From Aphrocallistes beatrix (taxonomy: Eukaryota > Porifera > Hexactinellida > Sceptrulophora > Aphrocallistidae): a stretch of DNA of 64,000 nt. The notes below the pieces were generated by a model. The model searched no databases, was not told the origin of the DNA, and saw nothing but the letters and a program-made list of their open reading frames with translations. A program made the position numbers and the translations under genes. The DNA lies in the NCBI GenBank assembly GCA_963281255.1, contig OY725497.1:4642968-4706967 (forward strand). The letters run 5' to 3'. Below are positions 9,918 through 61,532 of this stretch, one piece after another (position 1 is the stretch's first letter; the number at the start of each line of letters is the position of its first letter).

Positions 9918-10322
9918 ACCGTACACCCTCGCTAATCCAAACAGCTCTGTACCAATACCAGTAATAAAGACTGTTAAAAGATTATCATTGAAATATTATT
10001 GCTTTGAGGATATGCCTAATTTACGGGACGGCATCCTGTCCCGTAAATTAGGGATCTTAACTCGTCCCGTCCAGTAAATTAGGCACCTTTTCTGTCCCGT
10101 CCCGTAAATTAGGCATCTTGACTCGTCCCGTCCCGTAAATGAGGTACCTAGATTTTCCGGGATGATCCCGTCCCGTAATTAGGCATGCCCCTTTTAACGA
10201 AGTTTCTCAAACTTTTGCAAGATCTATTATAAAGGTCGATTCAACACGTATAGGCGAATGAAAGTATATTTTTTCGTTTGGAGTCTAAGAATCAAGTGCT
10301 AGAATTAGTGAGGGCGTCTGTA
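9918..10322. mobile_element. Tigger-like MITE family C, split by a nested family-D MITE
   Basis: The left end resembles GTACACCCTCGCTAATCC and the right end GAATTAGTGAGGGCGTCTG, as in the copies at 32967 and 42075. Within it, 10011-10190 is a family-D element with repeated CGTCCCGTAAATTAGGCA blocks and TATGCCTAATT/AATTAGGCATG ends. Family C is therefore older here. Confidence 0.65.
10011..10190. mobile_element. MITE family D (GGGACGGGAC / CCTAATTTACGGG)
   Basis: Imperfect inverted ends with internal repeats of a 25-35 bp unit containing TCCCGTCCCGTAAATTAGG. Relatives are at 42661, 46472 and 61201. The GC-rich core in an AT-rich genome makes it easy to recognise. Confidence 0.7.
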
Positions 10323-27333: not shown

Positions 27334-27510
27334 ATGTCTCAACTTAAAAGACACGACAGAATGCGGCTGAAGATCTCAGATCTATGCAGGATGCTACCAC
27401 ACGACGATGAATTGAAGAAAGGCCTTGACTCGCAATCCGTTTTGAGGCTGACTATCTCCACAATAAGGGCAATCAAGAACGCAGATTTCAGTGGAGACCT
27501 TTCCGCCCAG
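27334..27510 (+). CDS. bHLH exon of a bHLH-PAS transcription factor (first coding exon)
   Basis: Fifty-nine codons from ATG to a clean donor (CCCAG/GTATAT), ending in phase 0. The peptide is a basic helix-loop-helix: basic/helix 1 KRHDRMRLKISDLCRMLP, loop with DDELKKG, helix 2 LDSQSVLRLTISTIRAIKNAD, closest in style to the AHR class of bHLH-PAS factors. An in-frame TGA two codons upstream fixes the ATG unless a cryptic acceptor intervenes. The basic region is short. The next same-strand exon that fits is the PAS exon at 44610, which starts in phase 0 behind a CCCATAG acceptor and would give a 484-aa protein. bHLH-PAS proteins dimerise through these domains and bind E-box-like DNA in the nucleus; the ligand or signal is unknown. 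Confidence 0.8.
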
Positions 27511-43944: not shown

Positions 43945-44275
43945 ACATGGACTGAAATTGGTTGATTATTCAAGTATAATAATATTTAGTAATGTGAACT
44001 TTGTGGATTAAAATTGACCTTACATTCAGGATTAGTTGACTTAATACGAAGTAAATTCTATTTATCACGAACCAAAATTTCCTGCTACAGTTCTGATTTC
44101 ATTAATGTAACTGCAGACAAATGGCAATTCAGCATACTTAGTAGAGAACAAGAGAGCGACGTATTGTTTCTCTAATATCCCCAAGCGCCCACTGGGTAAC
44201 TCTGCGGACACTGCGTGTCCGCAAACCGCACAGCTCAAGCAAGCGAAGCTGCTTGTCATGAGTATGCACTGAAAA
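43945..44275. repeat. Segment shared with the upstream flank of the second PAS gene
   Basis: About 330 bp (GACATGGACTGAAATTGGTT ... GCGGACACTGCGTGTCCGC) recurs in inverted orientation at 60531-60845 with roughly 90% identity by eye. In both places it lies just upstream of the PAS exon and in the same direction relative to the gene. Its end carries the GC-hairpin of the Helentron-like elements. Confidence 0.8.
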
Positions 44276-44609: not shown

Positions 44610-45887
44610 ATGTCTAACAATATTGCACCTCAAGATGAAGATGCACTCCGTTACTCTGATCAGTTTTTCATCGTCTTTGATCAATCATTGACGATTTTCT
44701 ATTTGAGTCCCAATTCCAACAAGTTCATCAATACTATGAGCAACAAACTGATTGGCCAACCGCTGAATAAGATAATATTGCCAGAAGATCTCGTGGAGCT
44801 CAGCCAAATAATTCAATCTCTGAGAGACCAACCCAGCCAACCGAAGCAAAGCTTTGTTTGTCATTCCCGGTTTAAAGCATCAGCTAACAAAACCAAAAAG
44901 TATTTTAACAGCATCCCTGGTTACAAGCTGTACAAGGTAACTGGGACTGTTGACACGCGTGATGGCGGGTTAATCCACGCGTTATGCAAACCCATCTTTG
45001 TTGACGAATTGATGGACCGTCCAATGGAGGACCACATTTTTATCACTCTTCTCAGTGTAGACACTTTGTCCATTCTCCATCAGGACCAGCGAGCACAGAA
45101 GTACATTAACCTAGGGCTTGATGAAGTCAAAGGACAATCTGCCATGTCGTACATACACTCTTCCTTCGTCGACAGCTTTTCTCCGCTATGCGCGTTGCTT
45201 TTCAAGAAAGGAGAATCGATGACTGATGCGTATTTGAGTAAGTCCCGTGATGGATGGATCTGGTTACGCTCCAGAATGGCGTTCTACTATACAACTGAAA
45301 AAAGCAAAAAAGAGGGAGATCGAAAAGTCATGATTGTTATATCCCAGGTGTTAAATGGCTCGAAGCACATTTCCGATTCAGATTCGCATAACATCAGAAT
45401 GACTGCTGCCTCAAAACCTGTTAAGCGGACCCCCCAGATTGATACGGTCCCTCGGATCTCCCAGGAACCTGAGTCTACCAGAGGCTATCCGGACGTCCAA
45501 TATGGCCACGGCTTATCAATGGCTACTCAGTCAGACTTGCCAATGCCTGGCATCTCCAATCCACAGTATTTTCCTGATAGTTCCACCTTTTCCCCTTTTG
45601 CTATTCCTCCACAGCACTCCATATATGATTTGGAGCAACAACCACTTAGCGACACTATTGAGTGGGACCCCAGCTTTAGCCAATGCCTGTTTTCAGACCA
45701 AGATATGGGTTTGGGGTTCAATCCGGTTGAGAATTCGTCTCTTCCGCAGTTTCTTCCGAGCTATTCACAAGACTATCCGCCCTTTGAGTCCATGCAGCAA
45801 GCCAGCAACGCAATGATCGATGAAAACTATCCATCGAGTGATGGAGCTTCAAGCGATATGTTTTCATTCGATCAGAGTGATCAGTAG
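44610..45887 (+). CDS. PAS exon of a bHLH-PAS transcription factor (terminal exon)
   Basis: The exon starts after acceptor CTCCCATAG in phase 0 and runs 425 codons to TAG. PAS-A lies at about residues 20-75 (FFIVFDQSLTIFYLS) and PAS-B at about 150-250 (VKGQSAMSYIHSSF; DGWIWLRSRMAFYY). The C-terminal 170 residues are rich in S, P, Q, F and acidic residues, like a transactivation domain. The ATG at 44610 aligns with a valine (GTG) at the start of the paralogous exon on the minus strand, so it is probably internal and the true start is in the bHLH exon at 27334, which ends in the matching phase. It shares roughly 60-65% identity across the PAS region with the paralogue at 58165-60438 but lacks that gene's long repeat array. 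Class assignment (AHR-like or other) is uncertain. Confidence 0.88.
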   Translation: MSNNIAPQDEDALRYSDQFFIVFDQSLTIFYLSPNSNKFINTMSNKLIGQPLNKIILPEDLVELSQIIQSLRDQPSQPKQSFVCHSRFKASANKTKKYFNSIPGYKLYKVTGTVDTRDGGLIHALCKPIFVDELMDRPMEDHIFITLLSVDTLSILHQDQRAQKYINLGLDEVKGQSAMSYIHSSFVDSFSPLCALLFKKGESMTDAYLSKSRDGWIWLRSRMAFYYTTEKSKKEGDRKVMIVISQVLNGSKHISDSDSHNIRMTAASKPVKRTPQIDTVPRISQEPESTRGYPDVQYGHGLSMATQSDLPMPGISNPQYFPDSSTFSPFAIPPQHSIYDLEQQPLSDTIEWDPSFSQCLFSDQDMGLGFNPVENSSLPQFLPSYSQDYPPFESMQQASNAMIDENYPSSDGASSDMFSFDQSDQ

Positions 45888-46471: not shown

Positions 46472-46620
46472 CGGGCATGCCTAATTTCCGGGACGGGACG
46501 GGATACCGTCCCGGAAATTAGGCATCTTAACCCGTCCCGTCCCGGAAATTAGGTACCTTTTCTGTCCCGTCCCGGAGATTAGGCATCTTGACTCGTCCCG
46601 TCCCGGAAATTAACATGCCC
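46472..46620. mobile_element. MITE family D (CCGGGACGGGACGG)
   Basis: GGGCATGCCTAATTTCCGGG at the left and repeated GTCCCGTCCCGGAAATTAGG blocks up to CATGCCC at the right. 149 bp, between convergent genes. Confidence 0.75.
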
Positions 46621-46747: not shown

Positions 46748-47878
46748 CTAATAAAACATTTTTCTCTGCATAATACTTGGGCCTGTATCGTCATACTCAA
46801 CCTTTGTGATGCAAATAGAATCGAACATGCTTAATGAAGCTAGACACACGCCTCCCAGCCAGCTGGAGTAGTGTCTATTTTTAGGAGCATCTATTTTTAT
46901 CAGGAAAGCTGGAGGCGTGGTTGGCCTGATACCGTTGAAGAGGCGCTGTTCTATTCCTGGAAACATCGTGTTGCCACCTGATAGAACGATGTTTCGGAAT
47001 AAATCCCTTTGGATATCCAAATCGGAGTTCATTATTGCTGATTGGATGATTTGGTGAATGCCTGGGGAATCCATTCCGAAAAGTTTCGGTTGGAACATTG
47101 GTTCTGGGCAGCGACACATTTCGCTACCGACTGAGACCAACTGGCCATCAGGGAGCTTGTACTCCTTGTCCCCATTGGAATTACAACCATACTCTGCCAC
47201 TTTCTTTTGAAAGTCGAGTGCCACAAACGTGAGCTTCTCTTTCATGTCCCGAACCACTTTCCTCTCTGAGATGTTTGTAAAAAAGTGTCCTTTCTGTCTC
47301 AGCATCTGTGAAAGGTAGTCTGTCATGTCTCGCCCGCCCAAATTAAATCTAGCGATGTCATTCGTTTCCGCCCATCCCTCGTAGATTGGAACCACGTGTG
47401 AAATTGTGTCGCCCGAGTCCACCACCAGTCCCGTGGTTCGTCCGGAGGCGTAGAGCGACAACACTGCCTGCATGCCTATGTACAAACCCGAGGTGTGAAG
47501 TGTCTCGAACATTATCTCTGCCATCTTTGCCTGGCACAATCTAGGCGCGAGTGGCGGCAAAGTGAGGAGGACGGAGTGTTCCTCCGGGGCAACATGGAGC
47601 TCGTTATGGAATGTGTGTAACCAGAGGTGCTCCATATGGTCCCAATTGTTTGGTATGCCACCATCAATCGGAGAGCTGAGCGAAAGAATTCCTCTCTTGC
47701 AATAAGCCTCTTCTCCCACGTACACATTCCTTAGACCCATTTGTGTAGTTAGGCCCGGGTGAATCGGACTTCCTACCCAGGTGGGGAATATCGCACGAGG
47801 AACATTCTCTCCCGCAAACCCAGCTCTGGTGCTATCAGAACCTGCGTCGATCACAACTGGGATTTTATACGAACCCAT
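46748..47878 (-). CDS. Divergent actin-family protein, intronless CDS, 376 aa
   Basis: The ATG at 47878 (MGSYKIPVVIDAGSDSTRAG) aligns with the actin N-terminus, and a possible 5'-UTR acceptor (TTTCCAG) lies just upstream; the longer open frame upstream is not actin-like. Actin landmarks are all present: nucleotide-binding loop 1 (DAGSDSTRAGFAGE), YVGEEAYCKRGIL, NNWDHMEHLW, HTFHNELHVAPEEH, QAVLSLYASGRTTG, VVDSGD, GGRDMTDYL, LSGGNTMFPG and ending GPSIMQRKMFY. Length equals conventional actin. Many normally invariant positions differ (loop 1 DNGSG is DAGSD; VGRPRH is VGSPIH; the terminal KCF is KMFY), so this is an actin paralogue or actin-related protein, not a core cytoplasmic actin. The lack of introns could mean a retrocopy, but the frame is intact and selection seems likely. 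Confidence 0.9.
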   Translation of the reverse strand: MGSYKIPVVIDAGSDSTRAGFAGENVPRAIFPTWVGSPIHPGLTTQMGLRNVYVGEEAYCKRGILSLSSPIDGGIPNNWDHMEHLWLHTFHNELHVAPEEHSVLLTLPPLAPRLCQAKMAEIMFETLHTSGLYIGMQAVLSLYASGRTTGLVVDSGDTISHVVPIYEGWAETNDIARFNLGGRDMTDYLSQMLRQKGHFFTNISERKVVRDMKEKLTFVALDFQKKVAEYGCNSNGDKEYKLPDGQLVSVGSEMCRCPEPMFQPKLFGMDSPGIHQIIQSAIMNSDLDIQRDLFRNIVLSGGNTMFPGIEQRLFNGIRPTTPPAFLIKIDAPKNRHYSSWLGGVCLASLSMFDSICITKVEYDDTGPSIMQRKMFY

Positions 47879-48635
47879 AGAATACCTGGAAATAACGTAT
47901 CTCCTATAATGTATTATGATAGGAACTGCACTAAAATTACTATTAACATATGCGAATAGTATTTTCAATATATATTCTACTATAAAAATCAATTCAACCG
48001 ATTATACAGACTTGTAAAGCTAAATGCTCAAGTTGCATAGCAGAGCTATTGTCGTAAAGTTTTGTCCGTGAATGTTTTACAGACGAAGTTCTAACTTATA
48101 AAGGATTAAATTCCCTCTAAACTATGGACACAGGTAATGTCGGAGGAGTTTTAAAATCATACATTCGCTAGAGAGAGAATGGTTGCCATGGTCTGGCCCT
48201 TTTGATACTTGGATTTTCTAGACCGAATTCCTGTACCAATTTCAGGAGTTATTTTGAGGATGTTATGTAGTCCAGCGATTTCACGAGGGATATAAATTAG
48301 TTTTTAGTTAATGTCCGACTAATTTCGGCCCATTTCCAACGCTGCTCTACCCTCAACCAATCAAATATTGCACTCTAATGTCAGCCATCATTTCAATTGA
48401 CATTTTATATTTGAACAATTTCTAACTCTCACACACAAAACATGGCAGAAAAGTTGAGGGTTTTTGAGAAACGCTGAAAGTACAGGTTTTGTTTATAACA
48501 TAGATTGACCCTCCAACTCAACTTGCTAAGGTTCTGCGCCATATTTGTACGTATATGTCTGTTTCTATTTATAGACCTGTTTACACGTTTCCAATTGATT
48601 TTGTTATTTTCTAGTATTAGACATAATCACACCTA
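47879..48635. other. Divergent promoter region between actin-like gene and TMEM165
   Basis: About 750 bp shared by two divergently transcribed genes. Contains CTATTTATAG at 48565, 70 bp before the TMEM165 ATG. A pyrimidine tract with TTTTCTAG (48606-48615) could be a 5'-UTR acceptor for TMEM165. Confidence 0.4.
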
Positions 48636-49367: not shown

Positions 49368-49627
49368 CATTCCAAGCAAACTTCTCATTCTTCATTCTCT
49401 GTAAATTGCATTTAATTAATTCTCAATTATTTTAAATATGCTATAGTGAATGAATTTAGGTGAATGCCAATGAATCTAATTCGTTGCTATATTGTATATG
49501 ATTCCACAGGAATTTAAATTATTTAGATAGAATCGTTGTGGTGACTTTTATTCTTAATTCTGGGTCTAAATCCAGGAAAGATGTTCCAAAATAGATAATA
49601 AAATATTTATTAGGGTACAACGGCTAG

Positions 49628-50101
49628 CCTGGATACAGAGTGCGTGCATAGGAATGCAGATGGGCAGGAGCGGGTACTGTACATTCTTCGTGGGTGTCCC
49701 GGGAGCGGGAAATCCACTCTGAGCAGAGAGCTGAAAGGGGAGACTGGCCGCGTCTTCTCGACTGACGACTTCTTCATTCGGTCGGACGGAGAGTACGCGT
49801 TTGACCCGAAGAAAGTGGCCGGATTCCACAAGCGGAACCAGGAAAGGGCGCGCGATGCCATTTCGGAGGGCCACTCGCCGGTGGTGATCGACAACACGAA
49901 CACGACCGCTTGGGAGATGCGTCCGTACGTGGAGATGGGGCTCCGCCACGGGTACAGGGTTGAGTTCCGCGAGCCGAGCACTCCTTGGAGGTACGAGGCC
50001 GCCCAACTGAGCGAGAGGAACACCCACGGAGTGGGCATAGACACCATCCGCCGCATGCTGAAGCGGTTCCAGAAAAATGTGTCCGTGGAGAGTGTCATGG
50101 G
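49628..50101. repeat. Duplicated kinase block, copy 1
   Basis: Aligns without gaps to 52747-53220 (offset 3119 bp) with eight differences by hand count, five of them in the first 60 bp. Flanks differ completely on both sides. GC content is visibly higher than in the surroundings. Confidence 0.92.
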
Positions 50102-50936
50102 GAAAAGGATGGGTGCATTCGCTTCGAAGAGAAAACTAGCGTTCAGTAGTGAGCAGGCGCCTATTGATAAGGCGCCAAACTGTCCGAATGAATGGCAGCT
50201 GCCAGATGTAAAGGAGCAGGAACCTCCGCTCACAGAGTGTGATTTGATTGGTCAGGAAAATGCGTTTTTATACAACCCATTCAACCTGCTAATCGAGGAG
50301 AATTTGGAAAGTGATCAAGTTGTTCCTAAAAATAGAGATTCAGTTCCTAGCATATTTAAGGACGATCTTCTAGGAGTCGATGAGTTGCTAATTTTAGACT
50401 CAAACCCATTTTCGATGTGCCAAGAAATTCCCGACATTTTAACAGGGCAAGACATTCCATTCGACCCAACTGGTAACGATTCTAATTTCAGAAATTCTAT
50501 TTTTGAAGACATTGAGGACTTTCCACGCCTGAATTCTTCTTCACAAGTACTGAGTCCAAATAGTTCTGGTTTCCATGGAGATTTAATCGGGGAATGCTAT
50601 GCAGTCCAGGAACGGAATGTTACTAAAATTATCCCGCTTGTGAAAGAGACAAAGGTTAAAAATATAAAAAAGAAGTCATTTTTTCTCGGATTTAATTCAC
50701 AAATGTTATTTAAAATGTTTTCACGTTTTTCAGTAAACAGTCAACATTCCCGATTTGAAATCAAGAGTCAGATTTTAAATTATTTGTTTATCAAATCTTT
50801 AATTCCATTTTGTTTACGTAAACAGAGAGTCAAAAAGTGTTTGAGTTTGCTGTCCCTTTGTTTACTAAACAAGAATAAACATTCCATCTGTCGAAAAATA
50901 CGAAATATTCGCAAATCGAAACAGCTGAAAAACTAA
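49644..50936 (+). CDS. N4BP2-like P-loop polynucleotide kinase, short paralogue, 5' end unresolved
   Basis: An open frame whose first 150 codons are the N4BP2/T4-PNK-type kinase domain: Walker A LRGCPGSGKSTL, STDDFF, VVIDNTN, AWEMRPYVEMG, YRVEFREPSTPW. The remaining 280 codons are unrelated to the neighbouring gene, acidic first and then strongly basic (KNIKKKSF, RKIRNIRKSKQ), ending in TAA. The visible frame begins with GTG and has no upstream ATG before a TAG at 49611, so the initiator must come from another exon (the acceptor GGCTAG at 49622-49627 is a candidate) or the gene is a truncated duplicate. The 474 bp at 49628-50101 are about 98% identical to 52747-53220 in the long paralogue. 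The intact 430-codon frame argues for function. Vertebrate N4BP2L1/L2 are similarly short kinases of unclear role. Confidence 0.75.
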   Translation: MHRNADGQERVLYILRGCPGSGKSTLSRELKGETGRVFSTDDFFIRSDGEYAFDPKKVAGFHKRNQERARDAISEGHSPVVIDNTNTTAWEMRPYVEMGLRHGYRVEFREPSTPWRYEAAQLSERNTHGVGIDTIRRMLKRFQKNVSVESVMGKRMGAFASKRKLAFSSEQAPIDKAPNCPNEWQLPDVKEQEPPLTECDLIGQENAFLYNPFNLLIEENLESDQVVPKNRDSVPSIFKDDLLGVDELLILDSNPFSMCQEIPDILTGQDIPFDPTGNDSNFRNSIFEDIEDFPRLNSSSQVLSPNSSGFHGDLIGECYAVQERNVTKIIPLVKETKVKNIKKKSFFLGFNSQMLFKMFSRFSVNSQHSRFEIKSQILNYLFIKSLIPFCLRKQRVKKCLSLLSLCLLNKNKHSICRKIRNIRKSKQLKN

Positions 50937-52291: not shown

Positions 52292-55200
52292 ATGGAGCTG
52301 AGCATACACCCAACCCTCTGCACCACCAAGGGGCCACCACAGGACCAAGCCACTGCGACACAATCTTTTAGTCCTTCCAAAAAGGTGATGAAAATCGGTG
52401 GGAAAGATATAACTTTTCTCCTAGAAGGAGACCATCCGATTGGTTCGACACAATCGGGGAGTGGTTTGGGCGGGAACTTGGTGAGAGGCCGGAGGGGCAT
52501 TGGAAGGGGGGGTGGGTGGTGTGGGAAAGTGGACCTAGATAAAATAGGCGGGGAAAACTGTGTTCTGCCACAGGAGAAAATGGCGGACTGTGATTGGCTG
52601 GGAGATTCAAGCGCGGAATTATGTATTATGCCTATTGCGAATGAAATGCGCAACAGAGAATTTGATTGGCTGAGAGAGAGTGAGAAGACTGATCCCAACG
52701 AAATGTCCGACCAGGAAACCACATTAGTGGCGCAGCAAACTGTCTCCCTGGATACAGAGTGCGTGCATAGGAATGCAGGTGAGCAGGAGAGGGTTTTGTA
52801 CATTCTTCGTGGGTGTCCCGGGAGCGGGAAATCCACTCTGAGCAGAGAGCTGAAAGGGGAGACTGGCCGCGTCTTCTCGACTGACGACTTCTTCATTCGG
52901 TCGGACGGAGAGTACGCGTTTGACCCGAAGAAAGTGGCCGGATTCCACAAGCGGAACCAGGAAAGGGCGCGCGATGCCATTTCGGAGGGCCACTCGCCGG
53001 TGGTGATCGACAACACGAACACGACCGCTTGGGAGATGCGTCCGTACGTGGAGATGGGGCTCCGCCACGGGTACAGGGTTGAGTTCCGCGAGCCGAGCAC
53101 CCCCTGGAGGTACGAGGCCGCCCAGCTGAGCGAGAGGAACACCCACGGAGTGGGCATAGACACCATCCGCCGCATGCTGAAGCGGTTCCAGAAAAATGTG
53201 TCCGTGGAGAGTGTCATGGGTCGTGAGGCCATGAAACGAATTCGTGGCGAGTCAGCTGGCGAACAGCTGATTGAAGATGAGGTGAATTCCAATCAGGATT
53301 TGCTTAGCAACTCAGCTGATGATTGTCGTAGTGTCGGTACTTCTGTGTCGGATAGTTCTGTGCAGGACAACGAGTCTGGCGCTCAGGAATTTGAATCAGC
53401 TGATCAAGCAACCAATCAGGTACTGAGGTCAGTTGATTTCCAGCTGTTGCAGGATAGAGACGCAGTTTACCCGCCAATATTTCAGAATTCCGCATCAGCT
53501 GGTCCAATGAACGATGAAGATACCAAATCAGCTGATTTGTTATCCAATCAAATTCAAGCATCAGCTGTTCAGGATACTGAAACAGCTGTTCAAGATACAG
53601 AAACAGCTGTTCAAGATACTGAAACCGCTTTTCAAGATACAGAAACAGCTGTTCAAGATACAGAAACAGCTGATCAAGATAAAGAAACAGCTGTTCAGGA
53701 TACAGAAACAGCTGATCAAGATAAAGAAACAGCTGTTCAAGATTCTGAAACAGCTGATCAGGAAGATGTGCTAATTATAGATCCAGCTAACCAGGATCTT
53801 ATTTCTCACGAATCAGCTGATATCTGCCAATCAGCTCATGATCAAACTGACACACCTAACAAGCCAGAAATAGAACATTTGGAGCCCAGAAATTCCACCC
53901 AGAAAAGTTCGATTGTGTCCAATCAGGAGCGTTTCAACCAACAGCTGGTATCGGAACTAACCAACCGCAATAGTTCCATATTCTGCCTCAACCTCCAGAG
54001 CCTACCTGTTCTGCAGGATATTCTAAATATAGACAAGGTTCTTCAGGTGCAGAGCAACTTTCCTCTCGCACAGCTGTTAATCCCCGCGCAAATTCGCGCA
54101 CAGCTGACTCACACACAGATAGCCAACTTCCAGCACAACTACCAGCGTTACATTCAACACGTGTTACATGGCAAGAGGTCTAATATGACTGGCAGCGGGC
54201 TTTCCGACACTTCCCAAACTATGAGGTTGGATCTGAGGGGAAGTCAAGGGGTTTATTCTCAAGCGCGTATGCGAGCCACTCAGCCACATGTCACCCTGCC
54301 ACTTGTGCCGACACCAAACATCTCTCAATCACATAAACTTTCTCCCGCGATTCACGCCGAGACGAATTTAGCGCGAACTGCTAGCCCGCCAATCAGCGCT
54401 CAGCCTTCTTTCCCGCCTAATTCGGTGGCGTCATTGAATGGGAACCAACTGAATTTGGAACCAGAACCTAGTCTGCCAGCGACAAACGATGGTGAGAAAT
54501 TGGAAGATTCAACCTTTCCATTCAAACATACCAGCACCCCAGTATGCCCAGAAATAAACTCTGAAAATCAAATCGAACCAATCGAACTTAGTTTTAAACT
54601 CGGAAGTGAAAGTAATGAGGAGAATGGGACCATTCCGGATAGCGTCATCGATAATTCTTCTTTGGACACTTTATCACCTGATAAATCTCTATCTGCCACC
54701 TCGACACTAGAAAATAGCACTGATTTTCACCAGGCAACAGAAAGTAAAGAAGGAATTCAGACAAACAAAGAAACCCATTCTTCCACAGAAGCCCTTTCTA
54801 TTGGCTATTCAGCTCAGACCGCATCTCATTCTATTGGTGTAGATTCAACGTTGCAGATAGAAATTTTATCAAACAACCAAAAGCGAACAGATTTGAATTC
54901 TTCTGTTTGCTCGACAGAGGCGAATTCACCAACTGAGGTGGATTCCGACATATCGCGACACAATCCTGACGATAAGCAAATGTGTGAAACGGTTTTTAGA
55001 GAAAGTCCACCTTCAGTCGATGCATCCTTGCCCAAAACCACAAATTCTCCCAGCGAACCCGAGCAAATAAAACGGATTCTTTCTGAGAAAATTGATTGGA
55101 GCGATTCTTCCGAATCGGAACTGTCCAGTCCAAATTTAGTAACATCTGGAAGTACACACTCAGCTGACAGACTCCCTGACAACCAGATGAATGCCAATGG

Positions 55201-56761
55201 CTCCAATACGGAACTAAAACAGGCGCCATTTTCGAAATCAGCTGCTCCCTGGAATACCTGGTCTGGGTGGAGTTCTAATTTTATCACACCTCACACTCAC
55301 GACCACCTGGTCCCCACTGACCAATCAGCTGATCCGCAATCAGGGACGAAGAAATTTGACCCGACCATACAACCTCCGAAGAAGCACTCCACCCCAGCAA
55401 TAAAGTGTCCAACCGACATCCACAATTTCACACCTTCATTCTCTCGTTTTATGTCTTTCGAAGACAACTCAGAAATCCCTCTACCACAATCCACTCGTAA
55501 ATTAAGTCTGCCACCTAACATTCCATCAGCTGTTTCCCGCCCAAAGTGGCCTTCTTCTGAGTCTACCATCAAAGGAAACCCAAATGTCCTCTTCATGCCA
55601 GCTGGTGCTGAGTGGCAGTGGGCCAAAGCGACACCTAACAAAAGTGAGAATAGTGACACGAGAAGCGACTCTGAAGATCCGCGCAATTCTAAACCACTCA
55701 ACCCTTTCGCCATTCCTTGGAAACCCGGCGAGACAACCAACCAGCAGTCCACCAATGAGAAGCTCGAACACCTGAAAGGGTTCTTTCCAACCCTCCCGCT
55801 TGAAGAATTGCGCGCCTTCCTAGCTCAGAATAAAAACGATATCGACAAAACCTTGGAGGCCATAATCGACAGAGCCGAAGAACACAACCTTGACTTGCCA
55901 ATGTCCTCCCAAGTTCCAATCCCGCAGAAATTGGCCAAACGACTTCGATCCCCGAAAAAAGGTGACAAAGTCGTGACTCCACTTGATGCCACTGCTCCTG
56001 AGTTCCGGACGGAGCTAAGCGACACTCTTGAGACGAAGTGGTCACCAAATGGGGACGCCACTTCCAATTCTTGGACCAACCAATCACCATTTAAGGAAAG
56101 TGTCGCTAGCACATTTGACACTCCAGAGGTGGTAGTTGACTTAGACCCACAAACGAAGGAATACAGAAAGAGTTCGACTGAGAATTTTGTCGCGGACACC
56201 TTAGAGGACACATTTTCTGCCACTACGGCCACTTCGCCAGATGTAATCCCCAGTCTGAATCTCAGCTCGGATTTGATTGGCTATCTGGTCAAAAAGTTCG
56301 GTCCCATTCCTGGGTACACAAAGGAGTCAAGTTTGGAACAGTCGCAGATTCCTCTCAGCGAAGATTCCGCTCGGAACATACACCAGATTTGGTGTCGGAG
56401 CCATGCCATCCAATCCCCTCCGTTCTTCCCTCCATCCCCTCAAAGTGGCGGGGCGTGGGTGCCACCTGAAGATCCAATCGAACAAGCTAAACTGAGAATT
56501 TATACTTTGTACCCCGGCATTGACACAGCTACACTCGATCAGATATTAGCTGCGAAAAACTTTTCTCTCTCGGCCGCCAATAATTTTATTCAGGCCGCTT
56601 TGAATTCAGCGAAAATGCCACAGCAGAATTTAGTACCTTCCTTTGCTCACATCACCAAACAAAGTGGCACTCAATCTTTTCCGCCACTACCTTCCAAAAG
56701 CCACCACCAGCGTCAAACGAACTCTCTCTTTGGCCTGAACACCTCCAAACCATCCTTCTGA
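52292..56761 (+). CDS. N4BP2-like protein: P-loop kinase plus CUE-type domains, 1489 aa
   Basis: One 4.5-kb open frame from ATG to TGA. The P-loop kinase domain starts with Walker A at about residue 174 (LRGCPGSGKST), then STDDFF, VVIDNTN, AWEMRPYVEMG as in human N4BP2. A 7-residue repeat (AVQDTET-like, nine copies) spans 53563-53760. A long disordered S/T/P/N-rich region follows. Two CUE/UBA-like helical modules lie near the C-terminus: LKGFFPTLPLEELRAFLAQN at about 1160 and RIYTLYPGIDTATLDQILAA at about 1401. Human N4BP2 has CUE before the kinase and ends with a Smr nuclease domain; here the order is reversed and no Smr domain is seen, though a further exon cannot be excluded. N4BP2 has 5'-polynucleotide kinase activity and binds ubiquitin pathway proteins; by homology this is a kinase of nucleic-acid ends. 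The kinase block is shared with the gene upstream. Confidence 0.92.
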   Translation: MELSIHPTLCTTKGPPQDQATATQSFSPSKKVMKIGGKDITFLLEGDHPIGSTQSGSGLGGNLVRGRRGIGRGGGWCGKVDLDKIGGENCVLPQEKMADCDWLGDSSAELCIMPIANEMRNREFDWLRESEKTDPNEMSDQETTLVAQQTVSLDTECVHRNAGEQERVLYILRGCPGSGKSTLSRELKGETGRVFSTDDFFIRSDGEYAFDPKKVAGFHKRNQERARDAISEGHSPVVIDNTNTTAWEMRPYVEMGLRHGYRVEFREPSTPWRYEAAQLSERNTHGVGIDTIRRMLKRFQKNVSVESVMGREAMKRIRGESAGEQLIEDEVNSNQDLLSNSADDCRSVGTSVSDSSVQDNESGAQEFESADQATNQVLRSVDFQLLQDRDAVYPPIFQNSASAGPMNDEDTKSADLLSNQIQASAVQDTETAVQDTETAVQDTETAFQDTETAVQDTETADQDKETAVQDTETADQDKETAVQDSETADQEDVLIIDPANQDLISHESADICQSAHDQTDTPNKPEIEHLEPRNSTQKSSIVSNQERFNQQLVSELTNRNSSIFCLNLQSLPVLQDILNIDKVLQVQSNFPLAQLLIPAQIRAQLTHTQIANFQHNYQRYIQHVLHGKRSNMTGSGLSDTSQTMRLDLRGSQGVYSQARMRATQPHVTLPLVPTPNISQSHKLSPAIHAETNLARTASPPISAQPSFPPNSVASLNGNQLNLEPEPSLPATNDGEKLEDSTFPFKHTSTPVCPEINSENQIEPIELSFKLGSESNEENGTIPDSVIDNSSLDTLSPDKSLSATSTLENSTDFHQATESKEGIQTNKETHSSTEALSIGYSAQTASHSIGVDSTLQIEILSNNQKRTDLNSSVCSTEANSPTEVDSDISRHNPDDKQMCETVFRESPPSVDASLPKTTNSPSEPEQIKRILSEKIDWSDSSESELSSPNLVTSGSTHSADRLPDNQMNANGSNTELKQAPFSKSAAPWNTWSGWSSNFITPHTHDHLVPTDQSADPQSGTKKFDPTIQPPKKHSTPAIKCPTDIHNFTPSFSRFMSFEDNSEIPLPQSTRKLSLPPNIPSAVSRPKWPSSESTIKGNPNVLFMPAGAEWQWAKATPNKSENSDTRSDSEDPRNSKPLNPFAIPWKPGETTNQQSTNEKLEHLKGFFPTLPLEELRAFLAQNKNDIDKTLEAIIDRAEEHNLDLPMSSQVPIPQKLAKRLRSPKKGDKVVTPLDATAPEFRTELSDTLETKWSPNGDATSNSWTNQSPFKESVASTFDTPEVVVDLDPQTKEYRKSSTENFVADTLEDTFSATTATSPDVIPSLNLSSDLIGYLVKKFGPIPGYTKESSLEQSQIPLSEDSARNIHQIWCRSHAIQSPPFFPPSPQSGGAWVPPEDPIEQAKLRIYTLYPGIDTATLDQILAAKNFSLSAANNFIQAALNSAKMPQQNLVPSFAHITKQSGTQSFPPLPSKSHHQRQTNSLFGLNTSKPSF
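52747..53220. repeat. Duplicated kinase block, copy 2
   Basis: Partner of 49628-50101 in direct orientation, ungapped, about 98% identical. The central run of about 340 bp is identical. Confidence 0.92.
53563..53760. repeat. In-frame 21-bp tandem repeat in the long N4BP2-like gene
   Basis: Nine units of about 21 bp (GCTGTTCAAGATACAGAAAC-type) encoding A-[VDF]-Q-D-[TKS]-E-T. Being a multiple of three it keeps the frame. The product is an acidic, flexible linker. Confidence 0.9.
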
Positions 56762-58164: not shown

Positions 58165-60438
58165 TCAAAATAAAGTATCGGGCATACCATCAATCGTTGA
58201 AAAGTTTTGATCAATTATGTCAGTTTTAACGTTGTAGAGAGATCCCTGTGGGCAGGGTGATTGCAACGGTTGTATGGTCTGGTTGAAGAAGTTCGGATTG
58301 TCCTCCAAACCAAATTCCAAATTCACAATTTGATCGGAAAACAGAGATAGATTAAACATGTGGTCACATTCTAGATCTTGAGGGTTGACTGGCTCTTGTT
58401 GTGGGCTGTATATGGATGGTTCAGGCGGAGGAGGAAGATTGTATGGAGCAAAAGTGGCATTATCAGGAAAATGATCTAAATTTGGGATGCCGAATATTTG
58501 AGATTGAGGTGAGATTGCCAGTTGAGATTGAGGTGAGATTGCCAGTTGAGATTGAGTTGGGATTGGAAGGTGAGATTGAGTTGGGATTGGAAGGTGAGAT
58601 TGAGGTGGGATTGGAAGGTGAGATTGATGTGGGATTGGAAGATGACATTGATGTGGGATTGGCAGTTGAGATTGAGGTGAGATTGGCAGTTGAGATTGAG
58701 TTGGGATTGGCAGTTGAGATTGAGTTGGGATTGGCAGTTGAGATTGAGTTGGGATTGTCAGTTGACATTGAGGTGGGATTGGAAGGTGAGATTGAGGTGG
58801 GATTGCCAGTTGAGATTGAGGTGGGATTGGAAGGTGAGATTGAGTTGGGATTGGAAGGTGACATTGATGTGGGATTGTCAGTTGACATTGAGGTGGGATT
58901 GGAAGGTGAGATTGAGTTGGGAATGGAAGGTGACATTGAGTTTGGATTGGAAGGTGAGATTGATGTGGGATTGTCAGTTGACATTGATGTGGGATTGGAA
59001 GGTGAGATTGAGGTGAGATTGCCAGTTGAGATTGAGGTGGGATTGGAAGGTGAGATTGAGTTGGGATTGGAAGGTGACATTGATGTGGGATTGTCAGTTG
59101 ACATTGAGGTGGGATTGGAAGGTGACATTGATGTGGGATTGGAAGGTGAGATTGAGTTGGGATTGGCAGTTGACATGGAGTTGAAATTGGAAGGTGAGAT
59201 TGAGTTGGGATTGGAAGGTGACATTGATGTGGGATTGTCAGTTGACATTGAGGTGGGATTGGAAGGTGAGATTGAGTTGAGATTGCCAGTTGACATTGAG
59301 TTTGGATTGGAAGGTGAGATTGATGTGGGATTGTCAGTTGACATTGATGTGGGATTGGAAGGTGAGATTGAGGTGAGATTGCCAGTTGAGATTGAGGTGG
59401 GATTGGAAGGTGAGATTGAGGTGAGATTGCCAGTTGAGATTGAGGTGGGATTGGAAGGTGAGATTGAGGTGAGATTGCCAGTTGACATTGAGGTGAGATT
59501 GTCAGTTGACATTGAGGTGGGATTGCCAAGCCGTAGTCATATAGGATGTCTGGGGAGGTTATTGTAGACACTGGATCTTGTAATATTGGACCTAATATGT
59601 CCTTCTCGAAGGAAAAATCTCCAAATGGCATTGGGCTCACATTCTCTGGGATTTTATGCGGAACAAAATTAGTCTGTTTTGTGTTGCTCAACACTCGTGC
59701 AATAGTAATCATAGTTTTCCGCCCTACTTCTTTTTGGCCTTCATCTTCACCTGTATCGTAGAATGCTGATCTTGAACGTAGCCAAATCCATCCGTTACGA
59801 GACTTGCTCAAATATTCTTCAGTCATTGCTTCTCCTTTCTCGAAAAGCAAAGCAAAGGCTGGGCCAAGCGTGTCGATAAAGGAGCTGTGTAAGAAAGACA
59901 TCGCTGACTGTCCTTTCACTTCGTCTAAGCTAAGGTTAGTGTAATACCTAGCGCGGTGGTCCTGATGTAGAATGAACATCGTCTCTACACAGAGTAGTGT
60001 TACAAAAATGTGTTCATCTAATGGACGATCCATCAACTCATCAATAAAAACAGGTTTGCACAATGCGTGGATCAATCCGCCATCACGTGTGTCCACAGAA
60101 CCATTTATCTTGTACAGCTTGTAACCAGGGATGGTGTGTAGATTTCTAACTCGCTTAATTTGTGATTTGAGTCTGCAAAAGCAGACAAAATTCTGCTTCG
60201 TTTTATCGTATTGGTCTCTCAGAGATTGTAGCAGTTTGTTGAGGTACACGAGATCTTCTGGATATATTATCCTATTCAGCGATTGGCCAATCAATTTGTT
60301 GTTTCTGGTATTGATGAATTTTTGAGAATTGGAGCTCAAATAGAAAATCGTCAATGATTGGTCAAGGACGATGAAAAACTGACCAGAATAGAGAAGTGAG
60401 GTATTTTCATACTCTTGAAGTGAATAATCATTTGCCAC
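58165..60438 (-). CDS. Second bHLH-PAS factor: PAS exon with a 43-unit octapeptide repeat, 757 codons
   Basis: The exon begins at GTG 60438 directly after acceptor TTGTGTAG, in phase 0 as in the plus-strand paralogue, so the bHLH exon must lie beyond the window to the right; none is visible up to 64000. PAS-A (FFIVLDQSLTIFYLS, residues about 20-75) and PAS-B (VKGQSAMSFLHSSF; NGWIWLRSRSAFYD, about 150-250) match the paralogue closely. Residues about 302-646 are 43 tandem octapeptides of the type L-[PAT]-I-[PS]-[PTH]-Q-[SC]-[HQ]; the C-terminal 110 residues again align with the paralogue (FGIPNLDHFPD..., SLFSDQ). The protein is thus an intact PAS factor whose transactivation region was expanded by a 24-bp repeat. 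The frame is uninterrupted. Nuclear transcription regulator by homology; dimer partner and signal unknown. Confidence 0.88.
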   Translation of the reverse strand: MANDYSLQEYENTSLLYSGQFFIVLDQSLTIFYLSSNSQKFINTRNNKLIGQSLNRIIYPEDLVYLNKLLQSLRDQYDKTKQNFVCFCRLKSQIKRVRNLHTIPGYKLYKINGSVDTRDGGLIHALCKPVFIDELMDRPLDEHIFVTLLCVETMFILHQDHRARYYTNLSLDEVKGQSAMSFLHSSFIDTLGPAFALLFEKGEAMTEEYLSKSRNGWIWLRSRSAFYDTGEDEGQKEVGRKTMITIARVLSNTKQTNFVPHKIPENVSPMPFGDFSFEKDILGPILQDPVSTITSPDILYDYGLAIPPQCQLTISPQCQLAISPQSHLPIPPQSQLAISPQSHLPIPPQSQLAISPQSHLPIPHQCQLTIPHQSHLPIQTQCQLAISTQSHLPIPPQCQLTIPHQCHLPIPTQSHLPISTPCQLPIPTQSHLPIPHQCHLPIPPQCQLTIPHQCHLPIPTQSHLPIPPQSQLAISPQSHLPIPHQCQLTIPHQSHLPIQTQCHLPFPTQSHLPIPPQCQLTIPHQCHLPIPTQSHLPIPPQSQLAIPPQSHLPIPPQCQLTIPTQSQLPIPTQSQLPIPTQSQLPISPQSQLPIPHQCHLPIPHQSHLPIPPQSHLPIPTQSHLPIPTQSQLAISPQSQLAISPQSQIFGIPNLDHFPDNATFAPYNLPPPPEPSIYSPQQEPVNPQDLECDHMFNLSLFSDQIVNLEFGLEDNPNFFNQTIQPLQSPCPQGSLYNVKTDIIDQNFSTIDGMPDTLF
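58500..59531. repeat. 24-bp in-frame tandem repeat array, 43 units
   Basis: 1032 bp of 24-bp units (plus strand GATTGAGGTGGGATTGGAAG-type). A higher-order pattern is visible: seven consecutive units beginning LPIPHQCQ-LTIPHQSH recur 15 units later with few changes. Because 24 is a multiple of 3, antisense frames are also open over more than 1 kb; I regard those as shadows. Confidence 0.95.
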
Positions 60439-60530: not shown

Positions 60531-60845
60531 TACAAGCGCGTTTCGCTTGCTTGCGGACACTGTGTGTCCGCAGAGTTACCCAGTGGGCGCTTGGATATTA
60601 GAGAAACAATACGTCGCTTTCTTGTTCTCTACTAAGTATGCTGAATTGCCATTTGTCTGCAGTTACATTAATGAAATCAGAACTGTAAAACAGAAAATTT
60701 AGGTTCGTGAAAAATAGAATTTACTTCGTATTAGTCAACTAATCCTGAATGTAAGGTCAATTTGGATCCACAAAGTTCACATTACTAAAGATTATTATAC
60801 TTGAATAATCAACCAATTTCAGTCCATGTCGTTAACAACAATTAA
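60531..60845. repeat. Segment shared with the upstream flank of the first PAS exon
   Basis: Inverted counterpart of 43945-44275: GCGTTTCGCTTGCTTGCGG, TGCCATTTGTCTGCAGTTAC, AATTTCAGTCCATGTCGTT. About 95 bp separates it from the PAS exon start. Confidence 0.8.
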
Positions 60846-61200: not shown

Positions 61201-61532
61201 GGCATGCCTAATTTCCAGGACGGGACGGAACCATCAGGTACCCAATTTCCGTGACGGGACGAGTCAAGATGCCTAATCTCCGGGACGGGACAGAAAAGGT
61301 ACCTAATTTCCGGGACGGGATGGGTTAAGATGCCTAATTTCCGGGATGGGACAGGTTAAGATGCCTAATTTCCGGGACGGGATGGGTTAAGATGCCTAAT
61401 TTTCGGGATGGGACGGGTTAAGATGCCTAATTTCCGGGATGGGACGGGTTAAGATGCCTAATTTCCGGGACGGGACGAGTTAAGATACCTAATTCCCGGG
61501 ACGGGATCCCGTCCCGGAAATTAGGCATGCCC
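61201..61532. mobile_element. MITE family D with internal 31-bp tandem expansion
   Basis: Ends GGGCATGCCTAATTTCCAGG and CCCGGAAATTAGGCATGCCC. Between them about eight units of roughly 31 bp (GGGTTAAGATGCCTAATTTC-CGGGA) are tandemly repeated, so the element has grown to 332 bp versus about 150 bp elsewhere. Confidence 0.8.

Follow-up and report, generated by a model that had tools for sequence, protein, structure and literature searches.

How does a coding exon come to carry 43 copies of an octapeptide at a site where its paralogue carries about two, and does the resulting stretch serve the protein? We addressed this question in a window of 64,000 nucleotides from the glass sponge Aphrocallistes beatrix (contig OY725497.1, positions 4,642,968 to 4,706,967), the whole stretch of DNA that was analysed, which holds the array-bearing second exon of a minus-strand gene (hereafter M) and its plus-strand paralogue (hereafter P). 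The two form a clean natural pair for the study of coding-repeat growth—one site, with about two worn units in one gene and 43 young units in the other—and the block duplications among the 43 are still legible. Recent unequal exchange probably amplified the array in a weakly constrained tail of M, a reading that we develop below against its alternatives.

Gene Models and Family of the Two Paralogues

Both genes are modelled as a bHLH exon followed by a second exon that encodes PAS-A, PAS-B and a C-terminal tail, and they lie in convergent orientation. The second exon of M is an open frame of 757 aa plus stop (58165..60438, minus strand; inferred acceptor TTTTCTTGTGTAG/GTGGCA), and its bHLH exon lies 6.6 kb upstream, outside the window (L011 7035-7217 = C11:4710002-4710184, minus strand). 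The bHLH exon of P (MSQLKRHDRMRLKISDLC...; 27334..27510, plus strand; inferred donor CAG/GTATAT) is 17.1 kb upstream of a second exon of 425 aa plus stop (44610..45887, plus strand; inferred acceptor TTTCTCCCATAG/ATGTCT). As inferred, both introns are of phase 0 with GT-AG ends, and the modelled proteins measure 818 aa (M) and 484 aa (P). The bHLH exons are 70% identical across 50 aa (E 1e-20). In the second exons, 175 of 304 alignment columns before the array are identical, and beyond it the exons match again, though more weakly (45 of 148, E 8e-09), which bears out the original prediction that the alignment of the two proteins resumes on either side of the array. Between P and M lies a gene of the actin family (46748-48001, minus strand; 359 bits to the Pfam model Actin). 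By eye, a similar segment is present near both genes (about 43950-44200, plus strand, and 60600-60830, minus strand), and we gave this pair no weight on the question of the gene duplication, since frames like these, again judged by eye, recur in the flanking sequence L011.

Profile searches recover a helix-loop-helix followed by two PAS domains in both genes. At E up to 1, a profile of exon-joined M and P without their tails matched 46 distinct PDB sequences, with HIF1A, EPAS1 and BMAL1 best, then HIF3A, NPAS3 and NPAS1; the HIF1A match covers positions 12-297 of 316 (E 7.4e-15), and BMAL1 ranked among the HIF chains. With the query P0001 alone, phmmer placed NPAS1 and HIF1A on top, and a genome search with the same query scored three best-candidate places, one in P and two in M. 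By the ranking of PDB matches, M and P resemble HIF/SIM/NPAS-like bHLH-PAS proteins. Individual Pfam PAS models stayed under their cut-offs (in M, PAS_11 at 19.6 of 25 and PAS_3 at 18.9 of 25.6 bits; in P, PAS_2 at 17.2 of 21.4 bits), and the 49 PF00010 matches listed for the genome include neither of the two bHLH exons. Two further matches of M, to Cornifin (17.8 of 34.8 bits) and dut (18.6 of 102.55), were rejected as low-complexity chance matches.

The first exons open with MSRIKRHDKM in M (L011 7217, minus strand) and MSQLKRHDRM in P (27334, plus strand), placing the ATG just before a short basic region, which we take to be shorter than that of HIF or ARNT. The basic DNA-binding region of both proteins may be truncated, and its shortness raises the question of whether either binds DNA. 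The HIF hydroxylation motif L[D/E]x[L/R]AP, and the looser L..[LR]AP, found no match in M or P. The same genome also holds an ARNT-like gene (L022), whose matches are led by ARNT2 and BMAL1, and a CLOCK/BMAL-like gene (L021). Locus L023 was considered as a bHLH-PAS gene and rejected: PAS_11 reached 23.8 of 25 bits, no bHLH accompanied it, and WD-repeat-like sequence lies nearby (by eye). In the passages cited here, the HIF-SIM-NPAS group has sponge bHLH-PAS proteins as its sister, and these are described as lacking the hydroxylation motif (PMC5800844), as M and P do; those passages mention neither glass sponges nor an octapeptide array, whereas M carries one. Oopsacas minuta, another glass sponge, is reported to have three bHLH-PAS proteins of class C, in the Clock, ARNT and BMAL families, although the same passage gives a PAS domain to two bHLH proteins of that species (PMC10280926); on this account, the M/P pair is without a named counterpart there.

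The Array and Its Probable Seed

The array occupies 58498..59529 (minus strand) as 43 complete 24-bp units, all contained in the unbroken 757-aa frame of M. TRF places it at 58499-59525 as 42.8 copies, at 84% matches with 0% indels. Repeat finder and frame mapping agree on the array that the original prediction described in the C-terminal region of the minus-strand PAS gene; the interval given there, 58500..59531, was two bases off. The 43 units, among which LAIS and LTI types are mixed, have the consensus LPIPPQSQ and comprise 25 distinct DNA sequences and 22 distinct peptides. Leucine at position 1 is constant (43/43), and isoleucine at position 3 and glutamine at position 6 are nearly so (42/43 each). 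The predicted peptide is an uncharged P/Q/L/I/S/H stretch of 344 residues, with 0 charged and 1 aromatic. Array DNA was found at a single place in the genome, at the sensitivity of a search that passes over simple repeats and words of very high frequency. An open frame of 392 codons also spans the array on the opposite strand (58389-59567, plus strand), as is expected from a 24-bp unit without a stop in that frame.

At the matching site, P carries two unit-like octapeptides, LSMATQSD LPMPGISN (45513..45560, plus strand), located by tail alignments. The left flanks are PDILYDYG in M and PDVQYGHG in P; on the right, IFGIPNLDHFPDNATFAP in M faces LPMPGISNPQYFPDSSTFSP in P. When the second exons were aligned in full, MAFFT put the P tail in the wrong place, and we therefore used alignments with most units omitted. 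The best tail score was 148 with no unit kept, 174 with one, 191 with two, 183 with three and 175 with four, and with two units phase 0 was the best of the eight phases. None of 1000 shuffled 16-mers reached the mean of the real two-unit inserts (177.1), and in a one-unit control the best real score was reached by 3 of 2000 shuffled units. Since two units in phase 0 align best and the shuffled 16-mers stay below the real mean, the seed was probably about two octapeptides. The proposal of a single ancestral octapeptide is thereby half sustained: a short seed is still visible in P, and the one unit-like phrase described there is better read as two octapeptides, a single-unit seed being rejected on the scores (191 against 174). 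Aligning both proteins and mapping the units, as the original prediction had suggested, yields 43 units in M and about 2 in P.

A 14-residue stretch of P, LSMATQSDLPMPGI, scored 34 against the array, a value equalled in 1 of 5000 shuffles, and the best of 471 such windows in P is the array-site stretch (35). The best window elsewhere, out of register, reached 29, which indicates that low complexity contributes to the match.

Growth by Nested Block Duplication

The array is a set of nested block duplications. Among lags of 1-30 units, lag 15 has the top mean unit identity (0.890 against 0.853 in 2000 shuffles of unit order, z 3.25) and lag 9 the second (z 2.12). Exact runs of four units occur at both lags; a run of four arose in 0 of the 2000 shuffles and a run of three in 61. 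Only units 6-14 (59194..59409) and units 21-29 (58834..59049, both on the minus strand) show the 15-unit shift strongly, with identity at 211 of 216 nt. At a shift of nine, units 18-24 and 27-33 agree at 163 of 168 nt; units 12-14 and 18-20 are identical at all 72 nt, and exact three-unit copies are present at lags 6 and 2. The nested duplications at lags 2, 6, 9 and 15 rule out one clean 15-unit higher-order repeat. Of the nested 15-unit repeat and block growth originally proposed, block growth beyond the shuffled expectation is therefore retained, and the single clean period is not.

Age, Constraint and Rival Readings

Array units are far younger than the M/P gene split, or have been homogenised since. 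Unit pairs differ at a mean pS of 0.099 (pN 0.164), and M and P at a pS of 0.556 (dS 1.01, dN 0.345; in this alignment M kept array units 11 and 12), so that the youth claimed for the array stands when measured relative to the split between the paralogues. Divergence between M and P is lower in the bHLH-PAS part (dS 0.86, dN 0.24) than in the tail (dS 1.39, dN 0.57). Among distinct unit variants, 11 nonsynonymous and 3 synonymous changes compare with 51:19 possible (Fisher p 0.74, with the unit-1 codon read as TTG, Leu), and no constraint on the amino-acid sequence of the unit is detectable by this comparison, which with 14 variants is a weak test. A ratio as expected by chance implies that similarity among units reflects youth. 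The lack of indels is likewise weak evidence of coding constraint, because two TRF rows with periods of 31 bp and 35 bp, neither of them in a long open frame, have 0% indels too, and we set it aside. The case illustrates that low divergence among repeat units says little about selection.

One rival reading makes the array a selected functional domain, its LPIPPQ-type motifs forming a multivalent activation or condensate-forming tail; the transactivation or condensate-forming domain of the original prediction finds no support here, variation among the units looking neutral at the amino-acid level. A selected domain could have grown by the same mechanism, and the difference lies in function; an uncharged P/Q/S-rich composition and the constancy of L1, I3 and Q6 would suit it. 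Yet the third positions of codons 2, 4, 5 and 7 are equally invariant (43/43), so that the L/I/Q constancy needs no selection, and the unit variants fall as chance would have them; we consider this reading unlikely. A different history would have a longer array predate the gene duplication, with P since shrunk to about two units and M homogenised by concerted evolution. Tandem arrays can shrink as well as grow, as is generally known, and P does retain two octapeptides rather than one. This history requires more steps, however; the two octapeptides of P match one another at just 12 of 24 nt, and three or more kept units align worse than two. It strikes us as no more probable than a selected domain, and a gain in M is favoured over a loss in P.

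Two further readings concern the transcript and the assembly. The array could be an exitron, spliced out of some mRNA so that the protein often lacks it: a donor-like CAG/GTGAAG lies 221 nt before the array and scores 7 of 9 (against 8 and 7 for the two inferred donors), a second donor-like site with a score of 7 lies 111 nt before it, an acceptor-like TTTAG ends 22 nt past it, and the first span (221 + 1032 + 22 = 1275 nt) is a multiple of 3. That span, however, would cut into sequence conserved between M and P just past PAS-B, and the donor scores are crude counts of matches; an exitron seems very unlikely. We would be equally surprised if the assembly had miscounted or misordered the units, as the array is short (1032 bp), comprises units diverse in DNA sequence and keeps a continuous frame, and an error of that kind would more likely alter the unit count than create the array.

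Recent amplification by unequal exchange thus remains our preferred reading, with the following course. A pair of octapeptide-like units would predate the gene duplication, and slippage and unequal exchange would have amplified it in M alone, in part through block duplications with shifts of 2, 6, 9 and 15 units. M would tolerate the array for two reasons: beyond PAS-B the tail is under weaker constraint than the domains, and a 24-bp unit never shifts the frame. Its most likely effect on the protein would be a longer spacer separating PAS-B from the C-terminal end, and copy number would be largely free to drift. That M instead acquired a recent, length-tunable regulatory tail with a new activation or scaffolding property, its copy number an adjustable trait of the kind suggested for PER3 and reported in period, we regard as a long shot.

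Comparison with Known Coding Repeats

PER3 is a PAS protein that is not known to have a bHLH domain. The VNTR in its gene in simian primates, with a 54-bp unit of 18 aa present in 2 to 11 copies across species and, according to its authors, derived from one ancestral copy (PMC4164614), is the closest analogue in the sources covered: like the array of M, it is a coding, in-frame and lineage-restricted repeat in a PAS protein. The two differ in unit and length and in copy number (2 to 11 against 43), and variation between individuals is documented in the PER3 source, whereas the array of M is known from one assembly. M shares with PER3 an in-frame unit in a coding exon with homologous flanks, and copy number differs between the related genes (43 in M against about 2 in P). 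For the Thr-Gly repeat of Drosophila period, length variants are reported to differ in temperature compensation of the clock (PMC4709423). This repeat, too, lies in the coding sequence of a PAS protein and varies in length; as described there, it differs from the array of M in its dipeptide unit, in having an effect that was tested and in lacking a paralogue comparison. By analogy, the array of M looks like an ordinary recent expansion of the same kind as the length-variable repeats of PER3 and period. Within the small part of the literature covered, no bHLH-PAS protein was reported to carry such an array.

Other Repeats, Neighboring Genes and the Host

A second in-frame array lies in the same window: about 9.5 units of 21 bp (AVQDTET; 53562-53760, plus strand) within a gene at 52292-56761 (plus strand) that has AAA_33 and CUE domains (Pfam) and that we take to be N4BP2-like. 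Four TSSQGP-type hexapeptides (18-bp units) follow PAS-B in the CLOCK/BMAL-like gene (L021 1891-1962); together with M, this places tail arrays in two of the four bHLH-PAS genes seen in the genome. Our TRF survey covered 174.5 kb in a non-random sample of 21 sequences, which besides the window and its flank comprise contig ends, gene-hit loci and four arbitrary 10-kb stretches, and 22 rows passed a filter of period at least 9, at least 2.5 copies, 70-95% matches and about 100 bp or more; some of these rows represent one array. Seven of the 22, including the array of M and the 21-bp array, combine a period that is a multiple of 3 with 0% indels. Arrays of a 31-bp unit of the type ATGCCTAATTTCCGGGACGGGACGGGTTAAG were found by TRF at 10034-10144, 46506-46612 and 61204-61506; L008 and L013 have TRF rows of the same 31-bp period.

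Contig C28 is the mitochondrial genome of the host (17,996 bp). It has an atp9-like frame and the gene order atp6-cox3-nad2-nad5-trnF-trnC-nad1, with COX1 named by Pfam and the other genes by eye. Its COX1 has 11 in-frame TGA, and AGR falls at COX1 positions that we take to be usually serine. Base counts give an AT skew of 0.17 and a GC skew of -0.29. In the account of Aphrocallistes vastus mtDNA (PMC2267718), atp9, in-frame TGA, AGR as serine, this gene block, a positive AT skew and a negative GC skew are glass-sponge traits, and the skews are 0.18 (AT) and -0.28 (GC); Thr and Glu tRNAs are reported there as missing, whereas ARAGORN predicts both in C28. Taken together, the mitochondrial traits point to the class Hexactinellida.

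The N4BP2-like gene is the second of two tandem AAA_33 genes on the plus strand. CUE had no Pfam match in the first (49614-50936), and the kinase-like domains of the two appear nearly identical by eye.
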